42,158 bases of DNA from the IMG/VR virus record IMGVR_UViG_3300032562_000064, positions 1 through 42,158 of that record; one strand, 5' to 3'. Made by a program: the position numbers and the translations under genes. The notes beneath the pieces were generated by a model, which saw only the letters and a list, made by a program, of their open reading frames with translations, ran no database searches and had not been told where the DNA came from. Origin of the DNA: a virus. Positions 766 through 42,158 of this stretch are shown here, piece by piece. The stretch's first letter is position 1. Each line of letters opens with the position of its first letter.

Positions 766-1398
766 TTATCCGAATATTTCGATGAATTTTGCGAGTTGGG
801 CGTCCCTGGCGGCGGCCCCGGCGGCGGCCCTGGCGGCGGCCCTGGCGGCGGCCCCGGCGGCGTCCCAGGCGGCGTCCCTGGCGGCGTCCCAGGCGGCGTC
901 CCAGGCGGCGTCCCAGGCGGCGTCCCTGGCGGCGGCCCTGGCGGCGGCCCAGGCGGCGGCCCAGGCGGCGTCCCTGGCGGCGGCCCTGGCGGCGGCCCCG
1001 GCGGCGCCCCAGGTGGCGGCCCAGGTGGCGTCCCCGGCGGCGGCCCTGGCGGCGGCCAATTCCTCTCGACGGGCCTCGCCATTGGCAAAATTCTCCGCCG
1101 CGTCGAGAGCATCACGCGACCGCTGATCGGTCATCAAGCGCTCGACCTGACGCGCGCACCACACGGCGTAGAGCCGCCACTCCTTGTCAAACTGCGGCTC
1201 GGCCCGACAGCACCACAGCGCGTCGTCGATCCCGTTGCTTTCGGCGATGACGACGTAGGGGATGGGCGTATCGTCGCCGTAATCCGGGCCGAGAAATGCT
1301 TTCAGCTTCTGGTAGCCCTCCAGCGGCTTTTTGCGAGGGTCGATCCCGCAAGGCGAATGCGCGCGGATTCGGTTGAGCGTGGTTGTGTACTTCGTCAT
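766..1398 (-). CDS. Phage protein with (DAAW/RDAA)n Ala-rich repeat tail, 210 aa
   Basis: The start is ATG at 1398, preceded by AGAGGAG. Residues 1-110 form a conserved globular part with YTTTLNRIRA, PCGIDPR, an ESNGIDDALWC motif, YAVWCARQVERLM and a DALDAAENFANGEA segment. Residues about 115-200 are a tetrapeptide repeat of the type xAAx (DAAW, RDAA, ARAA), and the protein ends AQLAKFIEIFG. Proteins with this head and a variable Ala/Asp/Trp/Arg tail are widespread in phages and prophages of GC-rich bacteria, but their role is unknown to me. The repeat DNA has a 12-base period and is likely to change length by slippage. The gene follows the 88-aa gene in the same leftward transcript, and a second copy probably bridges the contig ends. 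Confidence 0.85.
   Translation of the reverse strand: MTKYTTTLNRIRAHSPCGIDPRKKPLEGYQKLKAFLGPDYGDDTPIPYVVIAESNGIDDALWCCRAEPQFDKEWRLYAVWCARQVERLMTDQRSRDALDAAENFANGEARREELAAARAAAGDATWAATWGAAGAAARAAARDAAWAAAWAAARAAARDAAWDAAWDAAWDAARDAAWDAAGAAARAAARAAAGAAARDAQLAKFIEIFG
802..1057. repeat. 12-bp period tandem repeat inside the Ala-rich gene
   Basis: About 250 bases are built of degenerate 12-base units of the form GGCGGCSNCCYN (plus strand), that is four codons per unit on the coding minus strand. The units differ mostly at first and second codon positions, giving Asp-Ala-Ala-Trp, Arg-Asp-Ala-Ala and Ala-Arg-Ala-Ala variants. The array stays in frame throughout. Confidence 0.9.
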
Positions 1399-2479: not shown

Positions 2480-2974
2480 ATGAAGAAATCCCGCCCTCGA
2501 TCCGAAATCCTCGCCCAAGACCCGCCAATCCCCTGCATCGGCGTCCCGGCCAAAATCCAGCGCGCAATCTGCGTCATGGTCGACGAAGGGCTGCCAATCC
2601 ACGTCGCAGCCGAACGCGCCGGAATCACAACTCACAAGCTCCGGGTTGCGTTCGCAGACCCGAATGTGCTGGCGTTCACACGGAAGAGGAGGCAGATGCT
2701 CAGAGAGAGCCTGTGCAGCGCAAACGATCATCGGCTGGCAGAGATACGCGACGCGGCGAACAACATGCCTGCCGTCAACGCCATCCTCGCGCTGGAGCGC
2801 ATGACCAATCCCGAGGCGGATGGGCGATCAGCGCCCACGCACGCGATTGGCGTGACGATTCAGATCGTATCGGCGCGGCCAGACGACGGTCAGGGTGTGC
2901 TAATCGACGCAAGTGCGGCCGCTCCCATCGATCGGGACGCGGTCGACGTCGATCTGGAGGAACCCGAGGCGTGA
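2480..2974 (+). CDS. Candidate terminase small subunit (HTH protein), 164 aa
   Basis: A helix-turn-helix is visible at about residues 37-55 (IHVAAERAGITTHKLRVAF), followed by an Arg-rich helix and the segment MPAVNAILALERM, and an acidic C-terminus (DAVDVDLEEPEA). This order (N-terminal HTH, central helices, acidic tail) is typical of small terminase subunits that bind the packaging site. Position upstream of the large subunit, separated only by small genes and an inserted leftward operon, supports the idea. The ATG at 2480 is preceded by a pyrimidine run (ATTTCCCCC) with no ribosome binding site, which is odd for this genome. It could also be a transcriptional regulator. Confidence 0.55.
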   Translation: MKKSRPRSEILAQDPPIPCIGVPAKIQRAICVMVDEGLPIHVAAERAGITTHKLRVAFADPNVLAFTRKRRQMLRESLCSANDHRLAEIRDAANNMPAVNAILALERMTNPEADGRSAPTHAIGVTIQIVSARPDDGQGVLIDASAAAPIDRDAVDVDLEEPEA

Positions 2975-3731: not shown

Positions 3732-3908
3732 GTGAAACTGATCGAGATCAAATCCGAGGCTCAGCGGGTGATGCTGGAGCGCGTTGTGGCTGATCCCGCT
3801 GAGGCTGATCGTCGTGGGATGACGGCGGAGTTGGCGCGCGCGTCGTTAGCGGCGTTTCACGGCCGGCGTGTTTTGCCTACTCGGTTGCACCCTTCGCGGC
3901 GTGGCTGA
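3732..3908 (+). CDS. Small hypothetical protein, 58 aa, GTG start
   Basis: A GTG at 3732 with GAGGCG nine bases upstream opens a frame beginning KLIEIKSEAQRVMLERVVAD, with continuous protein-like composition to TGA at 3906. It lies 12 bases after the preceding gene in the same direction. It overlaps the 3' end of the convergent leftward gene at 3877 by 32 bases. No domain recognised. Confidence 0.5.
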   Translation: MKLIEIKSEAQRVMLERVVADPAEADRRGMTAELARASLAAFHGRRVLPTRLHPSRRG

Positions 3909-4122
3909 GGGCGAGTTCTGAGCGCGCAAAAATACGCAGCCGCTTTGCAGCGCGTGCGGCCCGCGTAGCGGCTAACTCGTCCGCTGCATTTTCCATCGCC
4001 GCCGCGCGCTCGCGATGGGCGAACGCGACGAGCAGACTTACGTGGCCCTCGCGCTTATATGGTAGCGCGCACTCGCAGATTTCCTCGGCTAGCTCTCGCG
4101 CCCGTTCCTCGATCGTGCTCAT
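3877..4122 (-). CDS. Hypothetical protein, 81 aa, coupled to the recombinase
   Basis: The start is ATG at 4122 ([18 protein letters not shown]…), overlapping the recombinase stop codon as ATGA. The protein is predicted mostly helical and charged ([28 protein letters not shown]). It is the last gene of a three-gene leftward operon (5029, 4799, 4122) with stop/start overlaps throughout, so it probably works with, or is co-expressed with, the recombinase. No known family assigned. Confidence 0.7.
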
Positions 4123-4799
4123 TCTTTCGTTTCCCTCTTTCCGTGCGACAGCCCGAGGCGTTTCCTGACGCGCTCGACGGTTTCCGGGTGCCACGGCTTG
4201 CCTGTAACTGTGGCGACGCCGATCCTGTTGAGATGGGTCGCGGCGGCATATTTCCCGAGGTCTTTGATGCTGGTGAATAGGTCGCGCAGGGACTCGGCGC
4301 GGACCATCGCTTTTCCGGCGTCGCGCGCGTTGTGCTCGGGGTTGCCGAGCGGCCGGCCGGATTTTGTACCGACGATCTTGACACGCGCGAGGGCGGCTTT
4401 GGTGCGTTGCGAGATCAGGGCGCGCTCCTTTTCGGCAATGGCGGCGAACAGGTGGAGGATGAACGGATCGACGTCGGGCCCGAGCTCGGCGACGATGAAC
4501 GGAACGCGGTGCGCCATGAGGCCGCTGATGAAGTGGACGTCGCGGGAGAGCCTGTCGAGCTTGGCGACGACGACCGGCGCATTGAGGCGCTTGCCTTCGT
4601 CGATAGCCGCTTTGAGGACGGGGCGCGTGTCGAGCGCGTCTGCGCCCTTGCCAGTCTCGATCTCGACGTATTCCCCGGCGATCGTCATGCCGTTGGCTTC
4701 GCAGAAGATCGCGATGGCGTCGCGCTGGGCGTCGAGCCCGAGGCCGGACCTGCCTTGGCGCTGGGTAGAAACACGTAGGTAGGAGACGACCGGCGTCAT
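4119..4799 (-). CDS. Small serine recombinase (resolvase/invertase family), 226 aa
   Basis: Starting at ATG 4799, the protein opens with [12 protein letters not shown], where Ser11 in the YxRVS motif is the expected nucleophile. It continues with [11 protein letters not shown], the [10 protein letters not shown] motif (catalytic arginine region), [20 protein letters not shown] (the E helix) and a C-terminal region with a probable HTH ([16 protein letters not shown], then [17 protein letters not shown]). The length fits the small serine recombinases (resolvases, invertases, short transposon recombinases), not the large phage integrases. It is the only site-specific recombinase visible, so it may integrate the phage, resolve multimers, or invert a segment. 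It sits in a leftward operon inserted between the packaging genes. Confidence 0.88.
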
Positions 4800-5029
4800 T
4801 TCAGCGCCACATCGATCATCGCGCGCCAGACCGCGGCCATGTCGTCGACGGGCAACTGATCCGCAACACGAACCATCGCCTCCGTCGGCTCTCGCATCTC
4901 TGCAATTGCCCTGCGCGCGTATTTCCGGTAACCTTCCTGATACCCCTCGGGCATTTTGTCCCACGGCAGAAGCCCGTCCCATACGCTGGCCGCGATGATT
5001 TTTGCAACGCGTTCTACGGTCTCGCTCAT
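4796..5029 (-). CDS. Hypothetical phage protein, 77 aa
   Basis: I choose ATG 5029 ([19 protein letters not shown]…). The residues before it are poor and an AAGG lies upstream of this ATG. The protein ends DVALK with its stop overlapping the recombinase start (ATGA). It is of a type often seen in GC-rich phages: [13 protein letters not shown], a [20 protein letters not shown] core and a [12 protein letters not shown] end. Function unknown. It is the first gene of the recombinase operon. Confidence 0.7.
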
Positions 5030-5037
5030 TTTCGGCC

Positions 5038-5101
5038 TTGCGCCCCTGTGCTGTATGTGTGAGGTATGTGCTGGTTTTGGCAAGGCGTCAAGGGGGAAGT
5101 G
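5038..5101. promoter_or_regulatory. Divergent promoter gap between recombinase operon and late block
   Basis: The gap of about 70 bases separates leftward and rightward operons. On the minus strand TTGACG, a 17-base spacer and CATACC resemble a weak promoter for the recombinase operon. No clear sigma-70 boxes were found for the rightward block. Confidence 0.35.
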
Positions 5102-5875
5102 ATGAAGGTCGAACTTTCGAAGCCGACGAACGACAACCAGGGGCTGAGCGCCGAGTTTGCTCAGGTGCCGAGCGTATTCCTCCAGACCTATTCGTCCGAA
5201 CTGCTTGATTGGGCGGCAAATTTGACCGACCGCGGCGAGTTCTTAGACCTCACGCTTTGGAACCCTCCGGGCGCGACAATTCTCAGCGTCGGCTATCAGG
5301 GCAAGGTCAGGCTACGCTGCGCGGTCGCTGTCGGTCAAACGACGAAGGCTGTCCTGCTGCGGATCACGCCGGCCGACGAAGAAGACGTCGCCAAGGTGAG
5401 GAAGCATTGCGAAGACCTCCCGTCGATCATGCGCGCGCATCAGGTGGCGGCTGAGGCGTCCCGCGGCAAAGCCCGCGGCGCGGTCAAGGCGGTGTTCGAC
5501 CTGCCGGATTACTTCGTCGAGCGCTACGGCTTCGAACTGCGCGAGTGGGGCCGCAACATGAAGTCGATCGGGATGGTGAAGACGATCGTGCTGCGCGAAG
5601 GAACGCTTTCAGACCTGTCGCCGGACCCGGAGATCGGCGCCGTGCTCAAAGGTGTGAAGCTGCAAGCGAAGCCCGATCGACACGCGGGCGACGAGCTCTC
5701 GTTGCTGATTTCGCCGGCAACCGAAATGGACAAGCAGACGATTCTCAAGCACGTCGAGAAGATGCAGCGCATCGGCATTCCTGCGCGCGCCCAACTCGTC
5801 GAGCCGCCACGGCCGGGCATCCCGACCATACCCAACATCATCGGCGCCGCCGCGCCTGCGGATGGCGATGTCTGA
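5102..5875 (+). CDS. Hypothetical protein with internal duplication, 257 aa
   Basis: The start at ATG 5102 is favoured by AAGGGGGAAGTG directly upstream; an ATG at 5066 has no such signal. Function not recognised. The protein is built of two similar halves. Residues about 22-105 (VPSVFLQTYSSELLDWA … LLRITPADEEDVAKVRKHCED) and about 134-220 (LPDYFVERYGFELREWG … LLISPATEMDKQTILKHVEK) share hydrophobic spacing, the L.W pair, the (L/I)xIxPAxExD motif and the final KH.E. It ends in a Pro-rich tail. Its stop overlaps the terminase start by one base, so it may assist packaging. Confidence 0.75.
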   Translation: MKVELSKPTNDNQGLSAEFAQVPSVFLQTYSSELLDWAANLTDRGEFLDLTLWNPPGATILSVGYQGKVRLRCAVAVGQTTKAVLLRITPADEEDVAKVRKHCEDLPSIMRAHQVAAEASRGKARGAVKAVFDLPDYFVERYGFELREWGRNMKSIGMVKTIVLREGTLSDLSPDPEIGAVLKGVKLQAKPDRHAGDELSLLISPATEMDKQTILKHVEKMQRIGIPARAQLVEPPRPGIPTIPNIIGAAAPADGDV

Positions 5876-7398
5876 TGGGCGTCTTCAAGATCGCGGCCGG
5901 GACGCAACTGGCGAAGTTCCTCGTCTCGAATAACCCCGTCGACATGATCTTCGGCCCGCTTGGCTCAGCCAAGACGCGGACGATGTGTTTGCGCGTCGGC
6001 CGGCACGCCCAAGAGCAAGACCCGTCGCCGATCGACGGCAAGCGCTACACACGCTTTGCGATGGTCAGAAATTCCATGCCGATGCTCAAGCGCTCGACGC
6101 TGCGCACTTGGCGCGAGACGTATCCAGAAGACCAATATGGTCGCGTCACCGAGGGCGCGACCATGAATCACAAGCTCGCCTATTCGTGGCCCGGCGGCGA
6201 TGTGCGGTGCGAAGTCGACTTCATTTCGCTCGACAAAGACGATGATGTGAAGAAGCTGCGCTCGACCGAATACACGGGCGTCTGCTTCAACGAATTGCCC
6301 TATGTCGAAAAGCTCCTGTTCGATGAGGCCGACTCGCGCTTGCGCTACCCGCCGAAAGAGCATTGTGCGGTGCAGCCAAATGGGCAAAAAGACCCGAAGT
6401 GGCGCGGGCTTCTCGCTGACGGCAACGCTCCCGATGAAGACCACTGGCTCGCCACGATGGCCTATGGGCTCGACCCTCCGGGCGGCCTAACCCAAGCCGA
6501 CCTCGACCTTTTGAAGTGGCCGAAGGAGTGGGGGCTGTTCATGCAGCCGGCAGCGCTGATCGAAGTGCTCGACCAACGCGGCAATGTGATCGATTACACG
6601 GTCAACCCGCGCGCCGAGAACTTGGAGAACCTGCCGAGCGACTATTACGACCGGCAGTTGCGTGGCAAGTCGCGCGCCTGGATCGACTCGCGCCTCATGA
6701 ACCGCGTCGCGCTTGTCGTCGAGGGCCAGCCGGTGTGGCCGATGTTCAATCGCGAGTTCCACGTCTCGAGGGAGCCATTGAAGCCCGTTCCCGGTCACGA
6801 AGTGCTCGTCGCGCTCGACTTCGGGCGCGTCTATCCCGCCGCGCTGTTCGGCCAAGAGGTCAACGGCCGGCTGTTCGTCCAGTTTGAAATCCTGGGCTTC
6901 AACGAGCCGGCGAGCGCCTTCGCCCCGCGCGTGCAGCGCTTCCTCACGCAGAACTATCCGGGCTACAGCGTCCGCTTCGTCGGCGACCCCAAGGGGCGCG
7001 ACAAGGGCCAGCAGACCGAGCAGTCGAGCTACGATATCTTCGCCGCCCACGGCATGCCGGTGCGGCCGGCGCCGGTGAAGATGAACGACATCGCAACGCG
7101 CACCGAAGCCGTCGCCTTCGCACTCAACGACAACCCGGCTGGCGTGCCGCGCATGCAGATTTCGCCGGCCTGCCGAACGCTTGTCGTCGGCTGCGTCGGC
7201 CGCTACCACCTTGAGCGCGAGGAAACGGGCGAGCTAAAGCCTAAGAAGGACAAATACTCCAACCTGTGCGACTCGCTGCAATATTTTGTCCTCGACCGCG
7301 GCGACGGCCGCCGGATGATCGGACTCACGCCGACCGGGATCATCATGCCCATCAAGGTCGCAAAAGGACGGCGGACGATGCGCCGCATTGTCGGCTGA
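5875..7398 (+). CDS. terL: Terminase large subunit, 507 aa
   Basis: The ATPase half has a Walker A motif GPLGSAKT at residues 27-34 and a Walker B region EYTGVCFNE ending in Glu140. The nuclease half has LVALDFGR with Asp315, VGDPKGRD with Asp371 and SNLCDSLQY with Asp466, the expected three acidic residues of the RNase H-like nuclease. The protein packages DNA into the procapsid and cuts concatemers. The length is normal for podovirus terminases. The start overlaps the preceding stop (TGATG), giving translational coupling. Confidence 0.95.
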   Translation: MGVFKIAAGTQLAKFLVSNNPVDMIFGPLGSAKTRTMCLRVGRHAQEQDPSPIDGKRYTRFAMVRNSMPMLKRSTLRTWRETYPEDQYGRVTEGATMNHKLAYSWPGGDVRCEVDFISLDKDDDVKKLRSTEYTGVCFNELPYVEKLLFDEADSRLRYPPKEHCAVQPNGQKDPKWRGLLADGNAPDEDHWLATMAYGLDPPGGLTQADLDLLKWPKEWGLFMQPAALIEVLDQRGNVIDYTVNPRAENLENLPSDYYDRQLRGKSRAWIDSRLMNRVALVVEGQPVWPMFNREFHVSREPLKPVPGHEVLVALDFGRVYPAALFGQEVNGRLFVQFEILGFNEPASAFAPRVQRFLTQNYPGYSVRFVGDPKGRDKGQQTEQSSYDIFAAHGMPVRPAPVKMNDIATRTEAVAFALNDNPAGVPRMQISPACRTLVVGCVGRYHLEREETGELKPKKDKYSNLCDSLQYFVLDRGDGRRMIGLTPTGIIMPIKVAKGRRTMRRIVG

Positions 7399-31595: not shown

Positions 31596-31735
31596 ACCAC
31601 GGTCGCCTCAAGCCCCATTCCCCGCCATATCGCAGCTTCGCGCTCGGCTTCGGCAAGTGTCCGTGGCTGGATGATCGTCACGCGCGCGTTGCCGAAGGGA
31701 TGGCGCGCGACTACGTGGTAAGTTGCGTCAGTCAT
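31574..31735 (-). CDS. Small hypothetical protein, 53 aa
   Basis: Start ATG at 31735 overlaps the end of the upstream gene by eight bases. The protein begins MTDATYHVVARHPFGNARVT and continues IIQPRTLAEAEREAAIWRGM, ending VVQDVPYP. The sequence is compact and protein-like, and it closes the leftward early operon. No family recognised. Confidence 0.6.
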   Translation of the reverse strand: MTDATYHVVARHPFGNARVTIIQPRTLAEAEREAAIWRGMGLEATVVQDVPYP

Positions 31736-31937
31736 TGGCGCTCACCACCGCAATCGCCGCCTTCGCATTCTCGCGATCCCTGAGCGCCGTCGCGTCCGCC
31801 CTGGTCATGCCCTTCGCGATCGGTCGAGAATCGTACCCCTTGGCTCGCTCGTGGACCGCGAACGTGTGGTCAGGCCCGTATTGCATTATCGCATACGTGT
31901 GGATCGCGGCGGCGACGCGGTCGATTAGATCAGACAT
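31728..31937 (-). CDS. Small hypothetical protein, 69 aa
   Basis: I choose ATG 31937 (SDLIDRVAAAIHTYAIMQYG). It overlaps the end of the upstream gene by eight bases. The C-terminal part DATALRDRENAKAAIAVVSA is helical. It contains no known domain. Confidence 0.65.
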   Translation of the reverse strand: MSDLIDRVAAAIHTYAIMQYGPDHTFAVHERAKGYDSRPIAKGMTRADATALRDRENAKAAIAVVSAND

Positions 31938-32151
31938 TGTCGTCGTCATCATTCAGCCATTCCGCTTCGGTCGGCCGCTTTTTATACCCAGGAGGCGGGA
32001 ACTTCGCGTCGGCCTCGATGATTTTTCGGACGCGCGGTAGCCATTGGTTGTAGGCCCCGTCCGAAACGCCGTTCCGATAACTAGCATCCATTCCGTAAAT
32101 CGCTACGATGAGCGACAGGATAACCATGAACGCGAATACGATCTCAGCCAT
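31930..32151 (-). CDS. Small single-span membrane protein, 73 aa
   Basis: ATG 32151 follows GAGGAAAGG. Residues 2-20 (AEIVFAFMVILSLIVAIYG) form one membrane segment, followed by a polar C-terminal region (NQWLPRVRKIIEADAKFPPP) ending in Asp residues. Function unknown. The start overlaps the end of the interrupted ORF at 32144. Confidence 0.7.
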   Translation of the reverse strand: MAEIVFAFMVILSLIVAIYGMDASYRNGVSDGAYNQWLPRVRKIIEADAKFPPPGYKKRPTEAEWLNDDDDNV

Positions 32152-32281
32152 TTGTTGCGCACCTTTCCTCTTTGTCGGCGAGAGCGCGGATAATGTCCCG
32201 GTCGTAGCGTGAGACAACGCATATTGCAGCCTATCTCAGCGCCGCCTCGATCTCGTCAAGCAGGGCTGGGGTGATGGTCAT
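32144..32281 (-). pseudogene. Small gene interrupted by an in-frame amber codon
   Basis: From ATG 32281 (overlapping the previous stop as ATGA), the frame reads MTITPALLDEIEAALR, then TAG, then AAICVVSRYDRDIIRALADK and EERCATNG to a TGA that overlaps the next ATG. Both halves look like one small phage protein, and start and stop both couple exactly to the neighbours. A CAG (Gln) to TAG change would explain it. It may be dead, suppressed, or a 16-residue peptide. Confidence 0.6.
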
Positions 32282-42059: not shown

Positions 42060-42158
42060 GTTGGGTTATCCGAATATTTCGATGAATTTTGCGAGTTGGG
42101 CGTCCCTGGCGGCGGCCCCGGCGGCGGCCCTGGCGGCGGCCCTGGCGGCGGCCCCGGC
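42060..42158 (-). repeat. Partial second copy of the Ala-rich repeat gene at the contig end
   Basis: These 99 bases equal 760-858. On the minus strand they encode the C-terminus (…AQLAKFIEIFG) and stop codon (42066-42068) of the 210-aa repeat protein. The copy runs off the end of the sequence, so its N-terminal part is missing. The bases before 42060 do not match those before 760. Confidence 0.9.

Follow-up and report, generated by a model that had tools for sequence, protein, structure and literature searches.

A small serine recombinase, possibly of resolvase type, in an accessory-gene slot between the packaging genes of a phage

In the soil phage studied here, a small serine recombinase (SerRec) and two coupled genes form an operon that occupies an accessory-gene slot, and in sister phages this slot either holds nothing or has other contents. 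The window, that is the whole stretch of DNA analysed, is the IMG/VR virus record IMGVR_UViG_3300032562_000064 of 42,158 bases. The reading that we favour, with slightly less than an even chance of being right, is that SerRec is an accessory resolvase-type recombinase, active in multimer resolution or circularisation and carried in a replaceable slot beside the packaging genes. For the window such a mechanism would be drawn from homology only, since no site was identified in it.

The recombinase and its operon

A 226-aa serine recombinase in a coupled three-gene leftward operon, placed between a terS candidate and TerL, was described in the original prediction, and the open reading frames, the Pfam and PHROG matches and the ATGA overlaps all agree with it. 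The features of the locus are as follows.

2480 to 2974, plus strand: terS-like gene, a candidate by position and conservation, with matches of 29-56% identity at the same place in relatives
3732 to 3908, plus strand: s3732, a conserved gene of 58 aa that borders the slot on one side, with 60-69% identity in relatives with SerRec and in some without it
3877 to 4122, minus strand: d3877, 81 aa, last gene of the operon, ATG at 4122, ATGA overlap with SerRec
4119 to 4799, minus strand: SerRec (P0001), small serine recombinase of 226 aa; Pfam Resolvase PF00239, E 4.3e-21; PHROG 125 "DNA invertase", 1.3e-23
4796 to 5029, minus strand: u4796, 77 aa, first gene of the leftward operon, ATG at 5029, ATGA overlap with SerRec
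5030 to 5101, no strand: divergent intergenic region of 72 bp; a TTGAC motif at the operon start is common to relatives
5102 to 5875, plus strand: g5102, a gene conserved among relatives and the other border of the slot
5875 to 7398, plus strand: TerL, terminase large subunit (phrog_2, 5.3e-15)

The terS-like gene gave no family match in Pfam, PHROG or NCBIfam scans, and small genes on the plus strand separate it from s3732. SerRec is a member of PF00239, its Ser and Arg motifs showing little or no variation in a 33-row alignment, and its catalytic domain is followed by a short C-terminal part that presumably binds DNA. An AlphaFold model of the protein (mean pLDDT 82, pTM 0.57) shows, besides the catalytic domain, one long helix and a small C-terminal part that is helical. 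For this model, Foldseek returned 11 matches at E<=0.001, every one a serine recombinase, with the large serine recombinase Bxb1 ranked first and isolated catalytic domains after it; the TM-scores were low (at most 0.48 by query) and the assignment of the C-terminal part is therefore tentative. One protein of the related genome G455, presumably its SerRec, matches PF07508 (E 0.001), the start of which the C-terminal part of SerRec may resemble. Large serine integrases are defined by a full Recombinase domain, a zinc ribbon and 400 aa or more; SerRec has 226 aa and no PF07508 match at 1e-3.

The partners of SerRec in the operon are less constant. Matches to u4796 (29-36%) adjoin SerRec at four of the 17 loci, three being near-copies, and are also present in three relatives without SerRec. 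No match to d3877 was found in the 17 loci with SerRec, which hold other genes there, some of them methyltransferase-like by eye. A TTGAC...ATGACA block conserved upstream of the operon in the clade was considered as a crossover site and rejected, as it is by eye not palindromic; it may be a promoter or an operator.

The window genome and its ends

The phage is a podovirus whose late genes look T7-like, and its host is probably among the Hyphomicrobiales. PHROG matches of the late genes include the head-tail adaptor (phrog_332), the major head protein (phrog_212), tail proteins (phrog_394 and phrog_376) and an internal virion protein (phrog_342), and the window also encodes a RecE-like exonuclease, RusA and a primosomal protein. 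HTH_3-type regulators are present as well, together with weak PHROG matches (0.002-0.003) to families labelled as excisionase or repressor. An MCP match of 89% on one contig of a Rhizobiales bacterium MAG indicates the likely host. A 5545-bp contig from another dataset (L002) is 100% identical to the window across the SerRec locus.

The end of the contig bears on the completeness of the genome.

42060 to 42158, plus strand: 3' end of the contig, exactly equal to 760-858 (99 bases)

By this identity the contig re-enters its own repeat region, so that an integrase need not hide beyond an unseen end. Closing the genome requires no unseen stretch, and the repeats near 760-858 leave the exact layout open. 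The original prediction had left room for an integrase at the unresolved end; as the contig re-enters its own repeat region, the idea of an integrase hidden at an unread end was rejected.

Near the window start, exact direct repeats of 123 bp (1-123 and 1421-1543) and 127 bp (535-661 and 1699-1825) surround small leftward genes, together with a 12-bp tandem array; the length of the 127-bp repeat may reflect an assembly k-mer effect. The gene at 766-1398 (minus strand) holds about 20 copies of the 12-bp tandem repeat and matches phrog_18326 (function unknown) at 3.1e-48. Contig ends fall in tandem repeats of this kind in the window and also in the related records G007 and G015, there at another place in the gene order, and the repeat gene thus seems to be mobile. 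Upstream of the terS-like gene, three ATAATGCAA/TTAATGCAA copies with a spacing of about 20 bp were seen by eye at 2263-2313; they could be an operator, an iteron or a pac element.

A variable slot in related phages

Relatives were collected from IMG/VR by an MCP search (68 loci) and a TerL search (38 loci). Where SerRec is present, the gene order is terS-like gene, s3732, SerRec on the opposite strand, g5102 and TerL. SerRec lies between s3732 and g5102 in 16 of the 17 family loci that carry it, several of these loci being copies of one phage, and the remaining locus ends 1.1 kb past SerRec. The terS-like gene was not found in three of the 17 (L229, L232 and L233). The same two border genes lie near each other in relatives lacking SerRec, since they overlap in L082 and their matches are 193 bp apart in L074 and 570 bp apart in L077; s3732 was not found in five others (L078, L079, L081, L084 and L093).

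The clearest comparison comes from the sisters L074 and L076 (support of 100/99 in the TerL tree), which have 81-84% DNA identity beside the slot and 208 versus 961 bp inside it. An accessory slot is defined by such comparisons, in which sister phages have or lack SerRec between one and the same pair of conserved genes. The proposed check, namely a survey of related phages for the same insertion, thus gave SerRec between the same genes, present or absent according to the phage. The suggestion that a mobile module had been inserted holds for the variability of the slot among sister phages (L074 and L076, L082, L077), but no target-site or crossover signature was seen at its borders.

The TerL tree requires SerRec to have been gained or lost three times or more, and the recombinases of this phage family form a single clade (99/98) within the wider SerRec family. 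Because the recombinases are one clade and the tree demands at least three changes, the simplest reading is a single arrival of SerRec with later losses or swaps inside the phage family. The number of changes is also in keeping with the idea that SerRec is passenger cargo of an accessory island, kept by its own mobility or by its neighbours and without a role in the phage cycle, as are the different slot contents of the sisters and the variable cargo downstream of SerRec, in which methyltransferase-like genes were recognised by eye. Against this stands the finding that SerRec is the constant part of the island in the 17 loci, always opposite to the late genes and with its catalytic motifs kept, and we consider the passenger explanation improbable. 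In one locus (L225, 6730-7380), a DNA methyltransferase-like gene split by an intein-like sequence was seen by eye downstream of SerRec, within its operon.

Tyrosine integrases in the phage family

The original prediction stated that no tyrosine or large serine integrase was visible, and it stands: PF00589 has no match in the window record even at E<=10. Comparison of the integrases of relatives with the window gave nothing significant (best E 0.010 over 42 aa). No other recombinase family was found in Pfam scans of the window, the late genes having been scanned against PHROGs only.

Of 50 relative records from the MCP and TerL searches, 8 contain a PF00239 match and 18 a PF00589 match, 10 of the latter above the cut-off. 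The sole record with both is G033 (L075), a short partial one, whose tyrosine recombinase is of a different type from the integrases of the relatives. Large members of the family were taken as records of at least 43 kb with an MCP at least 67% identical, the 43-kb limit having been chosen after the table was seen; in these, a PF00589 match is present in 10 of 11 and SerRec in none. Three of the PF00589 matches (G001, G003 and G028) are under the Pfam cut-off, yet 38-55% identical to clear integrases. Related integrases (38-55% between records) occur in five of the eleven large members without SerRec and in G032. The exception among the eleven (G013) and the 38.8-kb record G031 have neither a tyrosine integrase nor SerRec.

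Conversely, PF00589 was found in none of the three complete or nearly complete genomes with SerRec, which are the window, G455 (46,085 bp, both ends within one 394-bp stretch) and a phage represented by G007 and G015 together (99.97% identical over 9,100 bp, both outer ends lying within tandem repeats of one kind). SerRec and the tyrosine integrase are therefore mutually exclusive among the large members of the family, in which the phages share ancestry. The refuting condition of the original prediction, absence of the operon from close relatives of the same lifestyle, thus applies in part only: relatives without the operon exist, but most of them carry a tyrosine integrase.

This exclusion fits an integrase substitute and counts against a resolvase. 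According to such an explanation, SerRec was recruited as an integrase, replaced the ancestral tyrosine enzyme and joins attP to a chromosomal attB, as phiRSM Int does; it is a serious rival for the window, although we judge it rather unlikely. Besides the complementary distribution (0 of 3 versus 10 of 11 at 43 kb or more), the precedent of phiRSM Int speaks for it (PMC4471427), and the HTH_3-type regulators and the weak excisionase and repressor matches would fit a temperate phage. On the other side, SerRec shares one record with a tyrosine recombinase of another type (L075), phage genes surround it in 16 of the 17 family loci and in the window, and its slot differs from the integrase place of relatives, which lies between the late genes and the early operon and to which the following segment roughly corresponds.

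31596 to 32277, no strand: presumed integrase place of relatives that have one, placed by inference; the window has two small leftward ORFs only

Relatives on other phages, chromosomes and plasmids

A search of IMG/VR with a 16-sequence alignment gave 474 relatives of SerRec, of which the best 80 of 474 were kept. Of 50 viral records with SerRec homologs that were searched, 13 contain PF00589 as well (10 over the cut-off), and this coexistence with tyrosine integrases argues against a recruited integrase. Among genomes of the host order, a sample from a larger group, 34 of 397 had a SerRec match at 1e-20. At one chromosomal locus (L202), the distance between SerRec and a TerL of another type is 0.7 kb, and a separate tyrosine integrase is found 4 kb away.

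A scan of genome contigs for the MCP gave 5 loci, and at none of these was SerRec found beside phage genes within the DNA examined. The contig G054:C6, at first taken for the context of the Brucella tritici prophage L139, proved by its length to be a different contig and was left out of account. The MCP search of the 397 sampled genomes of the order gave 2 matches, one of them in the genome of L138. The sole close homolog of P0001 among the PF00239 loci retrieved from the genomes of the 5 MCP loci (L155, 57%) is on a separate contig of the Rhizobiales MAG. Thus no prophage with a SerRec of the clade, hence no integrated copy, was found at the MCP loci of host genomes, which also weighs against the recruited integrase.

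On plasmids, 104 records had a SerRec match at 1e-20. Complete plasmids with homologs measure as little as 4,328 bp (SerRec, then directly repA), and others 5,812, 4,878 and 7,115 bp. The relatives of P0001 on complete 4.3- and 7.1-kb plasmids are 49-51% identical to it, and those on other small plasmids about 41%. Among the 40 matches listed, the plasmid relatives are mostly annotated as "recombinase family protein" or "resolvase".

Plasmid maintenance genes were also sought in the phages. No ParA, ParB or plasmid Rep family turned up among the window genes and the 32 G455 proteins that were scanned against Pfam and PHROG, and partition or plasmid replication genes are what would mark the window as a phage-plasmid. 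The earlier idea of a plasmid-like phage in need of a resolvase is accordingly supported at the level of the family, by the tiny plasmids and the single palindromic site described below, but not by the window, where neither such a site nor, among the genes scanned, a partition or plasmid-replication family was found.

Two further records deserve mention. G473 (L330, L331) is circular, with 21,982 bp and a terminal overlap of 1,405 bp at 99.7%, and has a ParB-like gene in addition to SerRec and a tyrosine integrase; it is a candidate plasmid-like phage or satellite, and elements of this type are where one would expect a resolvase. The 98-kb record G456 (L299-L303) was considered as tandem prophages and rejected, as two different phages are joined there at a shared identical 394-bp stretch holding one gene. 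Its junction is most likely an assembly join and less probably a real fusion.

A palindromic site upstream of many homologs

Just upstream of many SerRec genes is an imperfect palindrome whose centre is 2 bp long. The site of L277 is GTGTGACAAGCTAACG-CT-CGTTTGCTTGTCACAC, and that of plasmid pMNOD05, a perfect one (16/16), is GTATAAATCCGAAACG-AC-CGTTTCGGATTTATAC. The centre is variable (GT, CT, TT, CC, GA, AA, AC) and the flanking AACG/CGTT is mostly kept, which is the form expected for a serine-recombinase crossover site. The palindrome could also be an operator rather than a crossover site.

Three kinds of scoring were applied. In a motif-free palindrome scoring of 90 loci, 16 exceeded all 60 shuffles, and 12 of these 16 palindromes are sited 0-48 bp before the gene start; the shuffles (60 per locus, 20 per plasmid) preserve base composition only. 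A half-site model built from 18 phage and chromosome sites was tested on 8 plasmids outside the training set, and its best match lay above all 20 shuffles in 7 of them (one marginal), at a distance of 18-71 bp upstream in six plasmids and of 396 bp in one; in the eighth, L324, an inverted repeat was seen by eye. With a motif rule, fitted after the sites were seen, the palindrome was found in 26 of 85 homologs outside the clade versus 4 of 572 control windows. The 26 are made up of 10 of 57 among the other viral homologs, 11 of 20 among chromosomal ones and 5 of 8 among those on plasmids, and the small share in the viral group counts against the resolvase reading. One site subtype searched in 6 genomes had 10 matches in 4 of them, 9 beside the SerRec gene and 1 at a contig end (backward control 0). 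The SerRec copies concerned are therefore not enclosed by a pair of such sites.

In the clade of the window, the upstream palindrome was found in 0 of 13 by the motif rule (controls 0 of 84), and the whole window has no palindrome of 13/16 or better. The best score of the half-site model over the window, 12.1 at 2293, compares with 14.6-31.2 for the training sites and was not accepted. The clade has lost or moved the symmetric site, and its lack of a resolvase-type upstream site is a point in favour of the recruited integrase.

The same data bear on a DNA invertase of the Gin/Hin type that would switch a tail or surface-protein segment. The best PHROG label of SerRec is "DNA invertase" and the closest NCBIfam model is the Mpi invertase, far below its cut-off (58 versus 272 bits). 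Nevertheless, the window has neither a palindromic site pair nor a single strong palindrome, its inverted repeats are short and imperfect (20-37 nt, 73-90%, given with no chance comparison), the SerRec gene does not adjoin tail genes, and homologs have a single site per gene for the one subtype searched. The inversion of a surface-protein segment, one of the options originally raised, finds no support in these features and we regard it as very improbable.

For the family as a whole, a resolvase role is favoured by the combination of one symmetric site per element, the minimal plasmids and the coexistence with true integrases.

Distance between SerRec and TerL

The proximity of SerRec to TerL is recurrent, not general; its recurrence speaks for the resolvase reading, and its lack of generality against it. 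In seven of seven phages outside the window's family where TerL was found (G501, G468/G469, G464, G458, G481, G493/G498/G500 and G460), it lies at most 5.5 kb from SerRec, in a sample that is incomplete and biased to short contigs. A phrog_2 match is present in 13 of 50 viral records with SerRec homologs, and phrog_2 misses some TerL genes, such as that of G455, which went unreported. No terminase was found among the chosen large ORFs scanned in L257, L264, L273, L279, L280 and L296. In G456, TerL is 61 kb from SerRec, on the other phage's part of the joined record. The 30 genomes searched for phrog_2 contain 47 chromosomal SerRec places; a match lies within 2.3 kb of four of these, one of them with a TerL broken by stops, and the other 43 have none nearby. 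A TerL with an intein (Intein_splicing 1.7e-13) is encoded at 3363-5624 of L242, minus strand, 4.4 kb from a SerRec homolog.

Possible role and significance

As a resolvase, the enzyme would recombine two copies of one site that would be present together only in dimeric or terminally redundant phage DNA. The products would be circular monomers, formed after infection or while the DNA replicates as an episome or concatemer, in the manner of P1 Cre-lox. The neighbourhood of terS and TerL, a likely pac region if packaging is of the headful type, would place the site in the terminal redundancy.

A broader proposal, somewhat unlikely in our estimate, is that in a lineage of temperate podoviruses a serine resolvase of plasmid type, placed where packaging starts, took over from the tyrosine integrase, either in a P1-like episome or with a resolvase turned integrase after loss of the symmetric site. 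The wider family of phage and plasmid enzymes, large and little studied and with a predictable gene-adjacent site, could then explain why serine-recombinase prophages of Alphaproteobacteria are often without an att site. In Paracoccus, 16 prophages with serine recombinases were described, and the largest cluster, 11 of 15, was without an identified integration site (PMC6536676); their membership in the SerRec family is putative.

A small serine recombinase that stands alone in a phage genome is easily taken for a lysogeny marker or an invertase. The predicted palindrome beside the gene makes the choice between resolvase and integrase directly testable in a plasmid assay, and the trade-off between SerRec and the integrase inside one phage family offers a natural comparison of lifestyles.

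Comparison with known systems

In the titles and abstract openings of open-licence literature, neither a site of this family nor its link with the terminase was described, which is weak evidence of absence. The closest counterparts are the serine recombinases of the small plasmids pSM103mini and NZ_CP146235, which belong to the same family (49-51%), have 223 and 242 aa by annotated coordinates and are present as one match per record. They have the upstream palindrome common to many phage homologs, which is absent from the clade of the window; the latter differs further by its phage setting between packaging genes, and the function of the plasmid proteins is putative.

In P1, Cre acts on lox near pac. 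SerRec would act alike on phage DNA, beside packaging genes, but Cre is a tyrosine recombinase and the window is without plasmid maintenance genes among those scanned. A role of Cre-lox in making phage DNA monomeric or circular is described in PMC2409434.

The Int of phiRSM, from filamentous phages of Ralstonia, resembles SerRec as a resolvase/invertase-like serine recombinase that serves as the recombinase of a phage (PMC4471427). The attP of phiRSM matches a serine tRNA gene, whereas none was found in the window. The phages phiCD38-2, D6 and pBC52, known or putative plasmid-kept phages, likewise have a small serine recombinase of the resolvase/invertase subfamily (PMC8026635), but they carry partition genes, of which none was found in the window genes scanned.

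With the gamma-delta/Tn3 resolvases and with Gin and Hin, SerRec shares the catalytic domain; it differs from them in that its first Foldseek match, at a low TM-score, is Bxb1 and in that its C-terminal part may resemble the start of PF07508. The enzyme superfamily is already known, the setting is unusual, and the site prediction for the relatives is testable.
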